Of a DNA stretch of 64,000 nt, positions 612 to 7,280 are shown one piece after another; position 1 is the first letter of the stretch, and each line of letters begins with the position of its first letter. The notes beneath the pieces are model-generated. The model ran no database searches. It was not told the DNA's origin and saw only the letters and a list, made by a program, of their open reading frames with translations. This DNA is from Aquipseudomonas alcaligenes MRY13-0052 (GTDB taxonomy: Bacteria; Pseudomonadota; Gammaproteobacteria; Pseudomonadales; Pseudomonadaceae). A program made the translations under genes and the position numbers. The stretch lies in assembly GCA_000474255.1 (NCBI GenBank), contig BATO01000005.1, positions 62,001 to 126,000 of the forward strand, written 5' to 3'.

Positions 612-1187
612 TCAGGAGCGAAGGCCGGAAAGTGCCCGTTCGAGGTGCTTGTCGGCGATCGCGAGCAGCTCGTCGTCGTCCTGGGTGCTGGTACCCAGCC
701 AGGGGCGTGCAGGGATCTTGATGGTGTACGGGCCCAGAGTCACCCACTGGGAGAAATTGGCCCGGCGCTTGTTGACGAACCGAGGGCCAACCTCGCCGCT
801 CTTGGCGTCGTGATTGAAATAGGCCTGCTGGCTACGCGCCGCGACCTGGATCTCGCCACCGAACTGTTGGATGGCCGCATAGATGCGGTTCGAGCCAACT
901 GCCAGCTCGGTGTCGCTGACCTGGTAGCGCAGGGTGTTCTTCAGGTAGCCATCGAGCACCAGGATCTTGTCCTGGTTCTTGCGTTTGCGCTTCTGGTACG
1001 ACGGCGACAGGGGCTGCCATGGCGTGCCATCCGGTGCGCTCTGGCTCTCGAAGCGAGCATCCAGGGCGATCAGCATGTACTCGCCCATGTCGCGGAACAT
1101 CGCCTGCGGGTTCTGCAGGATGTCCAAGGCGGATTGGAGAGCCTGCAGCACCTGGGCGCTGCTGTACTCAAGTGAGACTCCAGACAT
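612..1187 (-). CDS. Mu gpG-like virion morphogenesis protein
   Basis: 191 residues matching the phage virion morphogenesis family (Mu gpG type; Phage_tail_S), a late protein of head or head-tail assembly. Recognisable parts are the central PDGTPWQPLSPSYQKRK stretch around residues 52-68, ILVLDGYLKNTLRY around 75-88 and IYAAIQQFGGEI around 102-113, all typical of the family. It follows the gpF gene in the leftward late operon, but the two are separated by an oppositely oriented HEPN gene. No strong terminator follows; 453-611 holds only weak dyads before the next promoter element. Confidence 0.82.
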   Translation of the reverse strand: MSGVSLEYSSAQVLQALQSALDILQNPQAMFRDMGEYMLIALDARFESQSAPDGTPWQPLSPSYQKRKRKNQDKILVLDGYLKNTLRYQVSDTELAVGSNRIYAAIQQFGGEIQVAARSQQAYFNHDAKSGEVGPRFVNKRRANFSQWVTLGPYTIKIPARPWLGTSTQDDDELLAIADKHLERALSGLRS

Positions 1188-1281
1188 AGCGACTCCTGTA
1201 CTATCTCAAATGATCGAGTGGGGAGCTTGCACACTCGTAAAACACTATGCGATTGGGCTTTGACTACTAGGGAGAGCGGCC

Positions 1282-1971
1282 ATGGCTAAGAAGATTGCTG
1301 TTGATCATGTTCGAGATGACTTCATCAAACAGATTGAATCGGCCCGCAAACTGGTCAACTCGGTACATGCCTTACCACGGAAATCTCCAAAGGCTCCGGG
1401 CATTCACCCAACACATGTGCAGCAGGTCGCTGAGCTTGCCTTCATGGGACTTGTGGCTTCGTGGGAGGAGTTTCTGGAGCGGACCTTGGTCCGATACATC
1501 GCAAATGCGACCACCGGTAACGGCTACCAGCCGACAGCAAAGGTGGGTTACGTCAACACTCTCAGTGACGGCTACATCGTTCTCTCACAAAATCCAAGCT
1601 ACGACCCTGCCAAGCACTACCTAAAGGTTACGGAGTACAAGTGGGTTGTAAAAACGGCGAGCTTCCTGTTCTCCGCTCATCCATATGGCTGCATCACAAA
1701 CAACCTGCAGTTGCTCAAGAATGCTGTTGCTATTCGAAACCGCGTAGCACATGCCTCGGAGAAGTGCCGGCAGGACTTTGTAGCAACAGCCAAAGAATTT
1801 AAGTCTGCCAATCCGCAGGCTGCGGTCCTACCGCAGGGCTTCACACCTGGAAAACTGCTATTCGAGCATGTCCAGCGCATTTTCCCTCAGCCGGACATCC
1901 AGGCTCAGCTCACTCACTTTGAGGCCTATGCGCGGTTGTATACCAAATTGGCAAGTCAAATCGTTCCTTGA
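1282..1971 (+). CDS. HEPN-type putative ribonuclease, inserted phage cargo
   Basis: 229 residues, mostly alpha-helical, with an R-x4-H motif in IRNRVAHASE (Arg152, Asn153, His157), the signature of HEPN domains such as the RiboL-PSP/MAE_28990 group. Many HEPN proteins are RNases in toxin, abortive-infection or RNA-repair systems; that this one cuts RNA is inference. It has its own Shine-Dalgarno (GGGAG, 1270-1274) and points against the late operon between gpG and gpF. Its stop overlaps the gpF 3' end by 16 bp. Base composition is clearly richer in A and T than the flanking head genes, indicating separate acquisition. No obvious antitoxin gene sits beside it. Likely roles are superinfection exclusion or defence of the lysogen. 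Confidence 0.7.
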   Translation: MAKKIAVDHVRDDFIKQIESARKLVNSVHALPRKSPKAPGIHPTHVQQVAELAFMGLVASWEEFLERTLVRYIANATTGNGYQPTAKVGYVNTLSDGYIVLSQNPSYDPAKHYLKVTEYKWVVKTASFLFSAHPYGCITNNLQLLKNAVAIRNRVAHASEKCRQDFVATAKEFKSANPQAAVLPQGFTPGKLLFEHVQRIFPQPDIQAQLTHFEAYARLYTKLASQIVP

Positions 1972-3215
1972 CGTTGGTACAAGCGGACACCCTGGCGGTA
2001 TTTCGACAGCGGCAGCTCGCCACCTTGCCTCGTCGTTGCTATGGCCGCCCAGCCGTAAGCGTCAACCTCGACCACCACCTGCACCGGTGCCGGCTCGCCC
2101 TTCACCAGCAGGTTCGCCAGGTACCGCCGCCGAACAACGGCCTTCTTCAGCGACTCCACCCAGTCCAGGCGCACCCAAACCTCGGCTGGGCGACGCAGCG
2201 TTTCAGCCGCCAGCAGCAGCCATTTCTTCGCCAGCCCGGGCTGTTGCACCACCAGCTCGCCGCTGGCCGGGCTAATGAACATCTCGCGGCCGATCACCAG
2301 GCGCTGGCCGACCACGTCCTGGAACACCGCAGGCTGTTCCAGCGTGGCGCCCAGGGGCTGCAGGAAACGCTGCACAGCGGTGGCATCGGATACATCCTCT
2401 GGCAACAGCTGGCTGGCAGGTACCGGGCGCGGTGCCGGCAGAGGGTCGTCGGGCAACCTGTTAGGTAGTCCAGGTGCAAGCGGTGCGGGGGGCGTGGGGC
2501 CGCTGTCGCGGGGTTGCGGTATCGCGCTGTCGAGCCTGGCCTGCCCGGGCAAGTACTCAAAGCCTGGGTCGACGCCCAGCGGCACCTGAACCACGCGTGG
2601 GCCGTCCGGGCTGTTCTGGCCGATGGTGCGCGTCTGCCAGATGATCGGCGGCGCCTGGTCCGGGCCTGACTTGCCCATGCGCCGCAGGTCATCCTCGCTG
2701 AGTGCCCGAACACTGCACTGGCAGCCCCAGGCGTTGATCGGGAAGTGGTACTGCCACCACGGGTCATCCCAGCGCAGCACCATGCCGTTCCAGGCCAGGT
2801 GTTCCTCGCGTGGGTGCTCGACAGCGTCGCTGTGCAGGTACTGCCAGTACGGGCGGTCCTCGCGCACGGCCATGAGCTGCTCGTAGCGCCCCGCCATGTA
2901 GCTGCTGCGCATGTTGGTCTCGTAGATCACCCGGCTGCGCCAGTTGCGGCCGCCCCGGTAGCTCCAGCCGTACTTGGCGACGATGCGGTCGAAGTCCCTG
3001 CGGAACTCCTCCAGGGTAGTGCCATCAGCGATCGCCTTTTCCACCGCCTGGCGGAAGTCCTGCACCAGGTCGTCACGGTTGGCGCCCGCGACCACGAACG
3101 CGTAGTCGTGTTCGCGGGTGTAGATGTCCGTCCAGGCGTTGGTGGGCAGGTTCAGCTTGCGCCGGAAGAACTGGTTCTGCTCGGCGAACGGCAGCGAGGT
3201 CGCACTAAGCGCCAC
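1956..3215 (-). CDS. Mu gpF-like minor head protein with C-terminal PBECR nuclease-like domain
   Basis: About 419 residues from a GTG start that overlaps the portal stop codon and follows an AGGAG; upstream codons in frame lie inside the portal gene and look non-coding. The N-terminal half is the Mu F-like head morphogenesis domain, with YETNMRSSYMAGRYEQL and a Cys-Gln-Cys near INAWGCQCSVRAL. A proline-rich linker leads to a C-terminal domain (roughly residues 300-419) resembling the phage Barnase/EndoU/colicin E5-D/RelE-like PBECR2 domain: FISPASGELVV, LLAAETLRRPAEVWVRLDW, RRRYLANLL, then a strand-rich end. Such domains are known on polyvalent phage proteins. It is thus both a capsid-associated protein and perhaps an injected effector. 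Confidence 0.83.
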   Translation of the reverse strand: MALSATSLPFAEQNQFFRRKLNLPTNAWTDIYTREHDYAFVVAGANRDDLVQDFRQAVEKAIADGTTLEEFRRDFDRIVAKYGWSYRGGRNWRSRVIYETNMRSSYMAGRYEQLMAVREDRPYWQYLHSDAVEHPREEHLAWNGMVLRWDDPWWQYHFPINAWGCQCSVRALSEDDLRRMGKSGPDQAPPIIWQTRTIGQNSPDGPRVVQVPLGVDPGFEYLPGQARLDSAIPQPRDSGPTPPAPLAPGLPNRLPDDPLPAPRPVPASQLLPEDVSDATAVQRFLQPLGATLEQPAVFQDVVGQRLVIGREMFISPASGELVVQQPGLAKKWLLLAAETLRRPAEVWVRLDWVESLKKAVVRRRYLANLLVKGEPAPVQVVVEVDAYGWAAIATTRQGGELPLSKYRQGVRLYQRQGTI

Positions 3216-4773
3216 GGGCGATCTCCTGCAGGATCTCGGTCCGGCCCTGCAGGGCGGCAGCGGCCAGAGCCTGTGCCATGGCGTCCGCATACTGCTCCAG
3301 GCTCATGTCGGGCAGCAGCTGCTCCAGGCCGTCGCGGATCTCGTCCAAGGACGCAGCACTCTGCACCAGGTCGCGGATGCGAGTGATCCACTGATCGGTG
3401 GCCGGGCGCAGATCGTCGTCCAGCTGGTCCGCAGCGGTAGCCGGTGGCTTCACCTGCGCAGTAGCCACCGCACGCACAGGCTCCATTGCAGCAATTGGCT
3501 GGTTAACCGGCTCGGCCACGGCCGCAAGCACGTCCTCACCTTCTGTAGGCTCGGGGATCGCCAGACGTTGCTGGGCCCAGGACCTGGGGATCTTTAAGCC
3601 GAGCTTCACCAGGGGCGGCAACGCCGTGGCATAGGCGGCCAGGTCTTCCGGCTCCTGAGTATCGAAGACCAGTCGCGGGCAACGGGCCCAGCTGTCAGCC
3701 AGGCCGTTGAGCACGGCGATCGGGAAGACCAGGTCGCGGCTGAGGGACTTGGCCACCATCTTGGCGTCGCCGTCCCGCAGGTCCTTGCGCACCTCGTTGT
3801 GCACGTTGCCCAGCGCGTTGGTGCTGCTCTTGCCATCGGCCTGGCTGGTCAGGGTACCGCCGAGGATCGCCTTGGACTGAGTGCGCTCACACCAGTCCAT
3901 CATCAGCTGGAAGGCCGCCGGGTCGCCCTGGGCGGCGTTGAGGAACTCCAGCTCCATGCCGATCGGGATGATTCCGGCGGCGTTGTGCCCCAACGCGGCC
4001 AGTGCGCGCAGCAGCGTCAGCTTCTCCTTCTCGGTGGCACCGGTCGGGTATTTGCCCACGCGCATGGGGATGCCGTAGATCTCCAGGAACTCGGCCAGGT
4101 CGCCCACGGAGTAGTTCTTGAACAGGTAGGGCCAGACCAACACGCGAAACAACCCCGCGCGCTCCAGGTACCCACTCTTGGCCTTGTGGACGTGGGTGAT
4201 CCAGGTGAGTGGCTGCAGCGGTATCCCATCCATGGCCCCGCGCAGGCGGATCTCCTGGCGCTGTCCCCGAGGGAGCTGGAACCAGGACTGGGGGCGATGA
4301 GTGATCGCCTTCGGCAGCCAGACGCCGTCGTTGCGCTGCCAGCCATCGAACTCCTGGCAGCTGAAGCCCTTGCCGATCGCGTCGGTGGTGTCGAACAGCA
4401 CCTCCTCGAAGTCGTCCAGGCCCTGCATAAGCTGGAACAGCGTGGCGGCGGCAGCCTTCTCCTTCGCCGTGGCGTTGTCAGGCGGCACGATGTCCCAGTC
4501 CAGCTGGGCGACAGCACGGCGGCGCTTCGACATCTCGGCGTAGATGTGGCCGTCCTTCTCCTCCATGTCCTCGTACAGCTCGCACTGGGCGACGATGTCG
4601 CCGTGCTCGGCCGCATCCAGGATCGCGGCCAGCTTGGACGGCGTCAGGCCACGTGAGGGGTGACCGGCGACCTCATGATGGAGGCTGGCGAGGTGGGCGG
4701 TCTGCGGCTCACGGATCTCGCTGAGCTGCAACGGTTGGCCATCGAGACCAACGATTCGAGTGGAAGTCACCAT
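3205..4773 (-). CDS. Portal protein, DUF935 / Mu gp29 family
   Basis: 522 residues of the DUF935 portal family, which forms the ring through which DNA is packaged and ejected. Seen directly: EMSKRRRAVAQLDWDIVPP (about residues 81-99), GFSCQEFDGW, a core KNYSVGDLAEFLEIYGIPMRVGKYP around 219-243, and the IIPIGMELEFL segment. The length agrees with Mu gp29. The start overlaps the terminase stop by seven bases and the stop overlaps the gpF start, so the packaging genes are translationally coupled. The last 100 residues are low-complexity and acidic, as in relatives. Confidence 0.9.
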   Translation of the reverse strand: MVTSTRIVGLDGQPLQLSEIREPQTAHLASLHHEVAGHPSRGLTPSKLAAILDAAEHGDIVAQCELYEDMEEKDGHIYAEMSKRRRAVAQLDWDIVPPDNATAKEKAAAATLFQLMQGLDDFEEVLFDTTDAIGKGFSCQEFDGWQRNDGVWLPKAITHRPQSWFQLPRGQRQEIRLRGAMDGIPLQPLTWITHVHKAKSGYLERAGLFRVLVWPYLFKNYSVGDLAEFLEIYGIPMRVGKYPTGATEKEKLTLLRALAALGHNAAGIIPIGMELEFLNAAQGDPAAFQLMMDWCERTQSKAILGGTLTSQADGKSSTNALGNVHNEVRKDLRDGDAKMVAKSLSRDLVFPIAVLNGLADSWARCPRLVFDTQEPEDLAAYATALPPLVKLGLKIPRSWAQQRLAIPEPTEGEDVLAAVAEPVNQPIAAMEPVRAVATAQVKPPATAADQLDDDLRPATDQWITRIRDLVQSAASLDEIRDGLEQLLPDMSLEQYADAMAQALAAAALQGRTEILQEIARGA

Positions 4774-6431
4774 GCGGAAGGCTCCGGTAGATCGATGTCG
4801 TGGTCATGGTTCTGGACGTTGTCGTAGCCGCGGCTATGGCGAGGCAGAGCCGTGAAATCGATTTCACCGCCGGACATGTAGGTGGCGCGGACAGCCATGA
4901 CCAAGGAAACGGCGCTGTCACCGTGGCGCTTGCCCTTGCCGCCGGCCGACTCCAGGTCCTTGGTGCGCCCCTTGTCGATTACCGGGACGCCTTTCTCGAC
5001 GACGATCGATAGCAGATCGTCCAGTTGGGTCTGGTGGCGCGGAATCTCCAGGTTGAACGCCTCGAATTCCCCCTTCAGCTTCGGCATCCACAGCGCGTAC
5101 CAGGCGAGGTTCAGATTCACCTGGTCGACCATGCCGGCGCCGTACCTCAGTGCTGCTTGTTCAGCCAGGTAGCCGCCGTTGCCGGTGGCGTCGAACGCCA
5201 GGCCGCGCAGACGCGGCAGGCGATCGCAGATGAAAAACATGATGTCGCGCTGGGCCTCATAGGTGAGGTTCCGCAGCTCGACCTGGAAAGGAACACGCTT
5301 GCGCAGCGCCGGCGACGTGGCCAAGGGCGTGAAGACGGTGAGGTCGCCGCGCCGTGCGAAGTCCTCCCCGAAGGTGTGGGTGTTCTGGTCGCTGAGACGT
5401 TTTAGCTCGGGCGCCAGGTGCTCCTCGCAGAAGGCCCGGATCTCGGCCACGCGCATCTCCGGCGTCCAGCTCTCGAAACCCGCTGGCGCCGTGTAGCGGT
5501 ATATGCGGATTGAATGGTCCGCCACCATCGCCTGCTCGATGAGCACTCGGGACAGGTAGGCCCCGCCGGACTTCTTCGGGACGCAGCCGTACTCCTCGTC
5601 GGCCGACTCGATGTTGGGGGCGTTCTTGTAGAGGCCATCGCGCCACTTCTGCTCGGCTTCTGGCGTCCAGGTCTGCCCGGTGACGTAGCAGATTCGCCGG
5701 TACAGCCCCTCTGCGATCGCCTGGTCCAGGCTGATAGTGTGGATGCTGTACTCCTTGCGACCCTCGCGGGCGTCCTGGATGTACGTGTTGAAGGCGTTGT
5801 CCACGCCGTTGTGGGTGCTAATCAGGCGGACCTTGTTGCCCCACATGGTGAGCGCCAAGGCCGCCTTGAGCAGCTCCTCCAGGGACTCATGGAACGCCGC
5901 CTCATCGATCACGACATCGCCCTGCAGGCCGCGCAGGTTGCTGGGCCGGCTGCTCAGCGCCTGGATTTTCCGCCCGGTCTTAGGGAAGCGGATCATGTAG
6001 GTGAGGATCTCTTCCTTCTTGCCCTCGTCCCAGAACGTCTGCTCGTAGACGTCGGCCTCGGCCAGCTGGTTGAAGGCGCGCGCGAACAGCGCACAGGCAG
6101 CGATGTACTCCAGCGCCATCTCCTGCTTGCTGCCCACGTAGAAGGTGTTACAGCCGCCCCGTTTGCGGGGCTTGGCGGCGTTGATCACGTTGCGCCCAGC
6201 CTCGGCCCAGGTCAGACCGGTGCGGCGCGATTTCTCCGCGATCATGATCGGGCTCTGGTCCTCGAACCAGCGCTGCTGGTACGGCAGGAACACGGCCTCG
6301 TTGGCCGGCTGTGCCTCGGATATCTCCTGGGGCACCTCGACGCCGTGCAGCGCCATCTCCACGGCCAGGTCGATCTTCCGGGGCGCACTGGTGGCCGTGA
6401 GGGGCTTCGAGGGAGCTGCTGCGTTCTTCAC
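4767..6431 (-). CDS. Terminase large subunit, Mu gp28 type
   Basis: 554 residues. This is the motor ATPase and headful nuclease that packages phage DNA. The ATPase domain has a Walker A variant EKSRRTGLTW (about 66-75), typical of the Mu gp28 group, and a Walker B VVIDEA (173-178). The nuclease half carries acidic residues in GEDFARRGDLTVF (Asp357), LAFDATGNGG (Asp414) and KRHGDSAVSL (Asp505), consistent with an RNase H-like fold. ATG overlaps the small-subunit stop (ATGA). Complete, with no frameshift visible. Confidence 0.93.
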   Translation of the reverse strand: MKNAAAPSKPLTATSAPRKIDLAVEMALHGVEVPQEISEAQPANEAVFLPYQQRWFEDQSPIMIAEKSRRTGLTWAEAGRNVINAAKPRKRGGCNTFYVGSKQEMALEYIAACALFARAFNQLAEADVYEQTFWDEGKKEEILTYMIRFPKTGRKIQALSSRPSNLRGLQGDVVIDEAAFHESLEELLKAALALTMWGNKVRLISTHNGVDNAFNTYIQDAREGRKEYSIHTISLDQAIAEGLYRRICYVTGQTWTPEAEQKWRDGLYKNAPNIESADEEYGCVPKKSGGAYLSRVLIEQAMVADHSIRIYRYTAPAGFESWTPEMRVAEIRAFCEEHLAPELKRLSDQNTHTFGEDFARRGDLTVFTPLATSPALRKRVPFQVELRNLTYEAQRDIMFFICDRLPRLRGLAFDATGNGGYLAEQAALRYGAGMVDQVNLNLAWYALWMPKLKGEFEAFNLEIPRHQTQLDDLLSIVVEKGVPVIDKGRTKDLESAGGKGKRHGDSAVSLVMAVRATYMSGGEIDFTALPRHSRGYDNVQNHDHDIDLPEPSAW

Positions 6432-6979
6432 GAGGCTTTACCCAACAGGATGTCGCGGATCTTGTTTTCGAGCTGCTCGCTCATGCCGTCACTACCGCGC
6501 ATCTCTTCCAGGCGCTGTTCCTGCTCCTGGATCAGCTTCTCGCGCGCCTCGCGCTCGATCTGGCGCCGCTCCTCCCGGCTCACCTTGCGCGCCTGCAGGA
6601 CGTCCTTGGCAGCCCGTGCCAGCTTGCGTACGTCGTCGACGGTGGTCTCCTCGTCCACCTGGGCGCCCATGGCGGCGTGGGTGGTGAGGGTGGTGATGGA
6701 CTGGACCATCAGCGCGCCGGCGCGGTCGTCGGGGTTCTCCCCCAGCTCTTCGACCAGGAGCTGCGCCATGGCCTGCTGTTCGCGCAGCCGCTTGGCCATT
6801 TCGTCGAAGCTCTGCCGGTAGCGCCCGATCGCCGAACGGCTGGGGCGCTCCTCGGATGGGAAGGTCGCCTCAAGGTCCTGGATCAGCTCGTCCAGGGTGA
6901 GGCGGTTCTCGCGCAGGCGGCGCTCGATGTGCGAGCGCACACCCGGGGCGAGCTTCTCGATACTGGACTTGCGCCCCAT
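6428..6979 (-). CDS. Terminase small subunit, DUF3486 / Mu gp27 family
   Basis: 183 residues from the ATG at 6979 (MGRKSSIEKL), the usual start of the family; longer in-frame extensions run into the upstream gene. An N-terminal HTH region (LPPGVR-type KLAPGVRSHIERRL, then LTLDELIQDLEATFPSEERPSRSAIGRYRQ) would bind phage DNA. A long charged coiled coil near the C-terminus (SREERRQIEREAREKLIQ and neighbours) would oligomerise. It is preceded by one base by the gp26-like stop and overlaps the large subunit by four bases. Confidence 0.87.
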   Translation of the reverse strand: MGRKSSIEKLAPGVRSHIERRLRENRLTLDELIQDLEATFPSEERPSRSAIGRYRQSFDEMAKRLREQQAMAQLLVEELGENPDDRAGALMVQSITTLTTHAAMGAQVDEETTVDDVRKLARAAKDVLQARKVSREERRQIEREAREKLIQEQEQRLEEMRGSDGMSEQLENKIRDILLGKAS

Positions 6980-6980
6980 G

Positions 6981-7280
6981 TCAGGCCCCCGGGCGCTTGA
7001 CGCCATCAACGCGCGCCCGGCCGGCGACGACATCGCTACCACGCTCGGTGAGCTTGGCCAGCAGCACGGAGCCGCTGTCGATCTCGTCGATAGTGACCAG
7101 CTGCTGCTCCTGCAGCCAGCGCAGCTCGGTCTTCACCTGGTCGCGGCTCGGCTCATGCCCCCACTGCTGGAGAACGGTATGCAACACCGAGCTGTTGGCC
7201 CGGTAGCCAGGCATCTCATCCAGGATGCGCAGGATCACCAGGCGGCGGTCTGCGCTCAGAAACTCCGCGTATTTGCTCAT
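6981..7280 (-). CDS. Winged-helix protein, Mu gp26 / VpaChn25_0724 family
   Basis: 99 residues with a compact winged-helix profile: RRLVILRILDEMPGYRANSSVLHTVL, a second helix pair EPSRDQVKTELRWLQEQQLV and a beta wing ending VLLAKLTERGSDVV. It matches the small proteins found between gp25 and the terminase in Mu-like phages. The role is not established; an accessory packaging or regulatory DNA-binding function is inferred. The stop is one base from the small terminase start and the start overlaps the DUF2730 stop. Confidence 0.75.
   Translation of the reverse strand: MSKYAEFLSADRRLVILRILDEMPGYRANSSVLHTVLQQWGHEPSRDQVKTELRWLQEQQLVTIDEIDSGSVLLAKLTERGSDVVAGRARVDGVKRPGA

Follow-up and report, generated by a model that had tools for sequence, protein, structure and literature searches.

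A HEPN-fold gene opposes the head operon of a Mu-like prophage in Aquipseudomonas alcaligenes

Analysis of a 64,000-nucleotide stretch of the Aquipseudomonas alcaligenes MRY13-0052 genome (contig BATO01000005.1, positions 62,001 to 126,000; hereafter the window, with positions counted from its first letter) reveals a gene for a HEPN-fold protein that lies between the phage genes gpG and gpF and is transcribed in the opposite direction to both. The transposase, transposition protein, endolysin, terminase, and portal genes detected around it indicate a Mu-like prophage. The fold of the product, the conservation of its motif, the insertion of the gene, its orientation, and the recurrence of its family against phage genes are shown by the analysis. 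We propose that the gene product is a stand-alone HEPN-fold RNase and that the prophage picked up the gene as a cassette in the space between gpF and gpG. Expressed from the plus strand in the lysogen, the protein would be harmless until a competing phage infects, whereupon RNA cleavage would halt the infection. Upon prophage induction, minus-strand late transcription would run through the gene, lower its expression, and allow the prophage to grow. Taken as a whole, from acquired RNase through lysogen defense to late antisense silencing, we hold this model to be evenly balanced between right and wrong.

The product has a HEPN fold and an invariant R-x4-H motif

A sequence-only reading of the window had described the product as a HEPN-type effector with an R-x4-H motif at Arg152 and His157. 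The motif is encoded as R152-N-R-V-A-H157, and both lines of evidence that bear on the claim agree with it: the protein has the helical HEPN fold, its closest solved folds being HEPN toxins of the HEPN/MNT type, and the arginine and histidine are conserved in all of the aligned sequences (13/13, the window included). Arg152, Asn153, Ala156, and His157 are invariant across these 13, all of which carry the R-x4-6-H motif that serves as a criterion of the HEPN superfamily, and six of the ten invariant residues in the alignment fall within I151-R152-N153-x2-A156-H157-x-S159. The HEPN fold is practically certain, and the product is probably an active RNase.

The sole Pfam match was PF18735, HEPN_RiboL-PSP, with 14.1 bits (E = 0.044) against a curated gathering cut-off of 28.4 bits; the same profile was matched at E ≤ 1 by six of nine family members, with a best E of 0.004. 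RiboL-PSP-HEPN, toward which the sequence-only reading had directed a profile search, is thus the nearest Pfam family, whereas plain membership in it was downgraded on account of the sub-cut-off score; moreover, the protein has no L-PSP fusion, and no ParB-type neighbor was seen among the scanned close relatives. Searches with the protein returned no match at E ≤ 1 in PADLOC or PHROGs, a single unrelated sub-threshold row in NCBIfam, and no HEPN protein in a sequence profile search of the PDB; the profile search likewise did not match HepS of the Gifsy-1 prophage (PDB 9oij, 9oik) in sequence.

The closeness in fold to HEPN/MNT (HepT/MntA) toxins speaks for an alternative in which the protein is a toxin with an unlinked or RNA antitoxin, as reported for AbiF, kept for prophage stability rather than for defense. 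We regard this alternative as serious but unlikely. No MNT gene adjoins the HEPN gene, and the residue two positions after the histidine is Ser159 in 13/13 sequences, where HEPN/MNT has the tyrosine of the RX4HXY motif that MntA modifies, as described in the excerpts of PMC7641770; on the same two grounds, membership in HEPN/MNT was rejected. The earlier remark that no antitoxin partner is visible stands, as both neighbors are phage morphogenesis genes and no MNT-like or antitoxin-like gene adjoins.

The gene was inserted at the gpF-gpG junction

In 77 viral contigs with a relative of gpF, both gpF and gpG could be placed in 73 (four were dropped), and the gap between them (the F-G gap) measures at most 3 bp, overlaps included, in 47 of these, 90 to 115 bp in 19, and at least 150 bp in 7. 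The closest contig (L051), whose gpF and gpG DNA are 93% and 94% identical to those of the window, respectively, has a gap of 1 bp and represents an empty site; the gap is likewise 1 bp in the Pseudomonas phages JBD25 and Ps56. Homology between the window and L051 stops in gpF at ...TTGTACCA and restarts at the start codon of gpG, and as read from this alignment, the insert has replaced the final codons of gpF and supplied the ribosome-binding site for gpG. In D3112, the anti-CRISPR genes occupy the next junction along, that of gpG and the protease gene.

The G + C content of the HEPN gene is 0.519, compared with 0.676 for gpF and 0.625 for gpG, and its value at third codon positions is 0.585, compared with 0.840 for gpF. 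This lower content and the empty site in L051 support the earlier suggestion that the gene was acquired; the A/T-rich composition that had been claimed for it holds relative to these surroundings, but not in absolute terms.

The family is patchily distributed and under purifying selection

Homologues were found in Pseudomonas capeferrum (L002, 75% identity), in a Pseudomonas sp. (L003), in other proteobacterial records (L004–L006), in genome G202 (L007/L008), in IMG/VR (L010–L012), and at L014, with L015 and L019 as remote relatives. The three IMG/VR homologues were recovered by an alignment-based viral scan, while the scan with the single protein recovered none; named phage records held no homologue at E ≤ 1e-5 or at E ≤ 10, and plasmids held none. 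Counting the genome of the window in each case, the gene is present in 1/18 genomes of the genus (the same-species genome G008 is without it), 2/398 of the family, 4/369 of the class, and 2/398 of the phylum. The class count includes L016, a weak match with four stops that was left out of further use.

Such patchy presence, with the window's own genome accounting for the only occurrence in the genus and for one of the two in the family, is what might be expected of a neutral moron that currently serves no function in this prophage. We consider this explanation improbable: the reading frame is intact, the catalytic motif is conserved, and the antisense placement recurs in three phage contexts. 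In addition, the comparison with the 75% identical P. capeferrum relative gave proportions of nonsynonymous (pN) and synonymous (pS) differences of 0.171 and 0.824, respectively, and therefore indicates purifying selection on the protein. Together with the ten full-length homologues from elsewhere and the empty site, this makes the gene more than a chance open reading frame (ORF).

Homologues recur against the structural genes of other phages

The window copy sits antisense in a head operon, whereas L010–L012 represent another type of tailed phage, which none of the window's other ORFs matches. The minus strand of L010 carries genes for capsid, decoration, phrog_7787, phrog_6367, tail terminator, tail proteins, and tail chaperone, and the HEPN gene opposes these structural genes from a position between phrog_6367 and the tail terminator. 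The HEPN gene of L012 has phrog_6367 on one side and, on the other, an ORF resembling the L010 terminator by eye; that of L011 is flanked on one side by the tail terminator, with a portal gene at a greater distance. In the Pseudomonas sp. locus (L003), the HEPN gene is convergent with genes for a phage lipoprotein and a tail assembly protein. Altogether, five of the 11 full-length copies lie beside phage structural genes, all five on the opposite strand; the neighbors of the other six (L002, L004, L005, L006, L007/L008, and L014) were read by eye and partly scanned. That one HEPN family runs antisense to structural genes in more than one type of phage suggests selection for this orientation.

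Near the remote relatives L015 and L019, a GmrSD_N (PF03235) gene lies in the same locus and on the same strand (L015:1947-3038, −), which suggests a two-gene system. GmrSD_N is ParB-like, and its presence there is in line with the operon of RiboL-PSP-HEPN and ParB reported in the excerpts of a survey (PMC3710099). Partners thus exist in the wider family, as the toxin alternative would have it, but Pfam found no GmrSD_N among the scanned neighbors of the window, L002, L003, L011, and L012.

Other genes share the HEPN strand in these loci. L011 has an Xre/MbcA-RES pair and an AAA_15/AbiEii-type ATPase (2174-3290, +; 4303-6030, +), and L012 has HsdM (4769-7198, +), opposite to the phage structural genes. 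Next to the P. capeferrum gene, a 278-residue ORF (L002:2191-3027, +) without a Pfam match at E ≤ 0.1 contains LRNALHH, an R-x4-H-like motif.

Published precedents and the proposed late switch

Two prophage systems resemble the window, as far as the excerpts of their reports describe them. Tha, a tail-activated anti-phage system of S. aureus prophages, is a HEPN RNase with an R-x4-H motif that defends lysogens and is turned off at induction (PMC11087260). It shares with the window gene its prophage origin, the motif (RNSIMH in Tha-1 and RNRVAH in the window), and an antisense arrangement. However, Tha-1 has 301 residues, including an N-terminal part without a recognized domain, compared with 229 in the window protein, and its gene is part of the cI operon, with the product of the antisense gene ith acting as its inhibitor, whereas the HEPN gene described here opposes the late operon and has no recognized inhibitor gene. 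The second system, Tai/Ati of phi80, is a noncontiguous operon in which Tai expression falls when the late activator Q is made (PMC11364771). Tai is a defense gene transcribed against the late operon, as is the HEPN gene here, but it blocks tail formation and is not described as HEPN in those excerpts, and the phi80 operon holds a counter-defense gene, none being recognized among the neighbors of the window gene. The window combines the two precedents so described, joining a prophage R-x4-H HEPN of the Tha type to a Tai-type position antisense to the late operon, and such placement inside an opposed phage operon is seen in L010, L011, and L012 as well.

We infer the RNase activity, the trigger, the defense role, the lysogenic expression, and the antisense silencing. 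A role in phage defense is moderately favored, whereas the switching of the gene by late transcription falls slightly short of an even chance. The switch is plausible because Tai of phi80 has the same placement and because a scan of positions 1100 to 2100 gave no terminator-like site, which leaves late read-through unblocked by any obvious terminator. Two points weigh against the proposal as a whole: no promoter-like site for the HEPN gene was found in 1100 to 2100, and three of the five copies beside structural genes come from the viral collection and are mutually related.

A prophage HEPN or defense gene set against a phage operon is a kind of system that already has published precedents. 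Searches of open-licence papers turned up no report that describes this HEPN family, its position within the head operon of a Mu-like phage, or its repeated placement opposite genes of other phages. The work adds a stand-alone HEPN family to the few prophage genes opposing phage operons that have a published defense role and, if the orientation is indeed selected, would offer a simple, single-gene case in which to test how prophages avoid the immune genes that they carry.

Coordinates of the gene and its neighbors

ORF calls, Pfam, and PHROGs bear out the earlier layout of a plus-strand HEPN gene between two minus-strand genes, including its overlap with the 3′ end of gpF, which is convergent (Table 1). 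The gpF protein (1956-3290, −) has a C-terminal PBECR2 nuclease-like domain (PF18810, E = 5.5e-20).

Table 1 Features of the HEPN locus and examples of the F-G RNA element
Feature	Position	Strand	Basis
HEPN-fold gene, 229 residues, ATG start	1282..1971	+	ORF call, Pfam, fold, alignment
Codons of R152-N-R-V-A-H157 (HEPN R-x4-H motif)	1735..1752	+	Alignment; codon positions read from sequence
AGGGAG, probable ribosome-binding site of HEPN gene	1269..1274	+	Read from sequence
Leader of HEPN cassette	1189..1281	+	Comparison with F-G RNA element of related phages
Convergent overlap of HEPN and gpF 3′ ends, 16 bp	1956..1971	.	ORF coordinates
gpG, virion morphogenesis/Neck1 (PF05069, phrog_26)	612..1187	−	Pfam, PHROGs
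gpF-like minor head protein (PF04233)	1956..3290	−	Pfam, PHROGs
Portal protein, late operon	3205..4773	−	Pfam, PHROGs
Terminase large subunit, late operon	4767..6431	−	
F-G RNA element, examples	L041:5076-5180; L026:1394-1498; L048:9471-9575	−; +; −	

A structured RNA element in the F-G gap of related phages

In related phages, the F-G gaps contain an RNA element that runs antisense to the late genes and offers a separate testable lead. A 19-base pattern of this element lies between gpF and gpG in all of the viral contigs that contain it (15/15), some of these contigs being near-copies of one another. An alignment of the element (A3; 18 sequences, 17 distinct) supports a stem P1, a hairpin P2, and a terminator-like hairpin P3 with T-rich sequence behind it, as well as kissing of the P2 and P3 loops over 6 bp. 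Of 425 cells in A3, 98.8% are paired, a value that leans toward the structure because the structure was drawn from the same sequences; slid versions of the structure gave 32.5 to 43.8%. Both-sided changes occur in 12/25 pairs, and among 500 shuffles the observed value was reached by none on four measures and by eight on the fifth (further pair types). Support for the kissing helix comes from two of its six pairs, one changing in 3/17 sequences of one lineage and the other in a single sequence, and one cell is unpaired. The excess of G-T over A-C cells (24 to 1, with one pair giving 13 of the 24) suggests that the RNA is the antisense strand.

The covariance model R1 matched 22 of 95 loci, every one at the F-G junction and antisense. 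Fourteen of these matches are strong (94 to 123 bits) and represent training sequences or the same phages, and the remaining eight reach 23 to 28 bits (E 1.7e-5 to 5e-4). The best match in the window's own genome (29.7 bits, E 6.2e-5) reads as an ordinary strong terminator and counts against R1 because eight of the 22 junction matches score only in the lower range. The R1 junction matches therefore give little independent support for the RNA element. Rfam, searched with a relaxed threshold first in 11 loci and later in 10, found nothing at the F-G junction. A TATACT/TACTAT/TACAAT box was noted by eye upstream of the element, and a promoter is only suggested because, in most of these phages, the box and the gpG ribosome-binding region overlap on opposite strands. 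The excerpts of PMC10085705 report self-cleaving ribozymes close to genes of Mu-like phages. In six distant Mu-like loci (L101, L103, L106, L107, L123, and L124), the F-G gaps measure 91 to 113 bp and look hairpin-rich by eye; R1 and Rfam recognize nothing in them.

The F-G slot also holds other genes. Antisense cargo follows the element as a 108-residue ORF in L022 (1166-1489, +), with a homologous ORF in L045, and a 93-residue antisense ORF occupies the slot of L071 (3257-3535, −); an ORF on the sense strand is found in L065 and L096. Named phage records gave no F-G RNA at E ≤ 0.01 and no homologue of the 108-residue cargo. These arrangements might reflect a control slot of Mu-like phages set against the late operon, in which an unrecognized antisense kissing-loop RNA, equipped with a promoter and a terminator of its own, would be transcribed in the lysogen, interchangeable cargo (HEPN, 108-residue, 93-residue) would form lysogeny-only units switched off by late transcription, and unrelated phages would have converged on an antisense HEPN gene beside neck or tail-terminator genes. 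We hold this reading to be doubtful, having moved it slightly further down from an already low estimate because there was no independent strong model hit and two contigs carry sense-strand cargo.

Related phages keep the antisense structured RNA at this junction without a cargo gene, which favors yet another explanation, namely that the cassette acts in cis, its plus-strand transcription dampening leaky gpF, gpG, and late expression in the lysogen, with the protein secondary. We consider this highly improbable in view of the purifying selection on the protein and the occurrence of the HEPN family also away from recognized phage genes; the window leader, moreover, is degenerate and has no R1 match.

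The leader of the HEPN cassette

The window leader begins like the F-G element, with TGATCGAGTG at 1211-1220 and hairpin arms CGAGTG (1215-1220) and CACTCG (1232-1237), and is degenerate in the rest. Run over 12 upstream sources, R1 gave E 0.042 for the P. capeferrum leader (L002), no match for the window, and nothing better than E 2.3 for the other ten. Against first-order Markov resamples, the L002 leader gave 0/2000, and the window leader gave 3/2000 as a whole and 40/2000 without the gpG ribosome-binding part. Given the missing R1 match and this weak last result, we did not adopt the view that the window leader is a complete copy of the element.

The structured leader before the P. capeferrum copy is a further point in favor of a toxin with an RNA antitoxin. 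However, no structured leader common to all was found when 11 upstream regions were folded and compared by eye, and L002 alone of the 12 sources scored E < 1 with R1; a family-wide upstream RNA antitoxin was not adopted, L002 being the only suggestive case. As for the acquired cassette that we favor, it appears, with moderate confidence, to share history with the F-G slot because the L002 leader resembles the element and the window leader keeps its first part.
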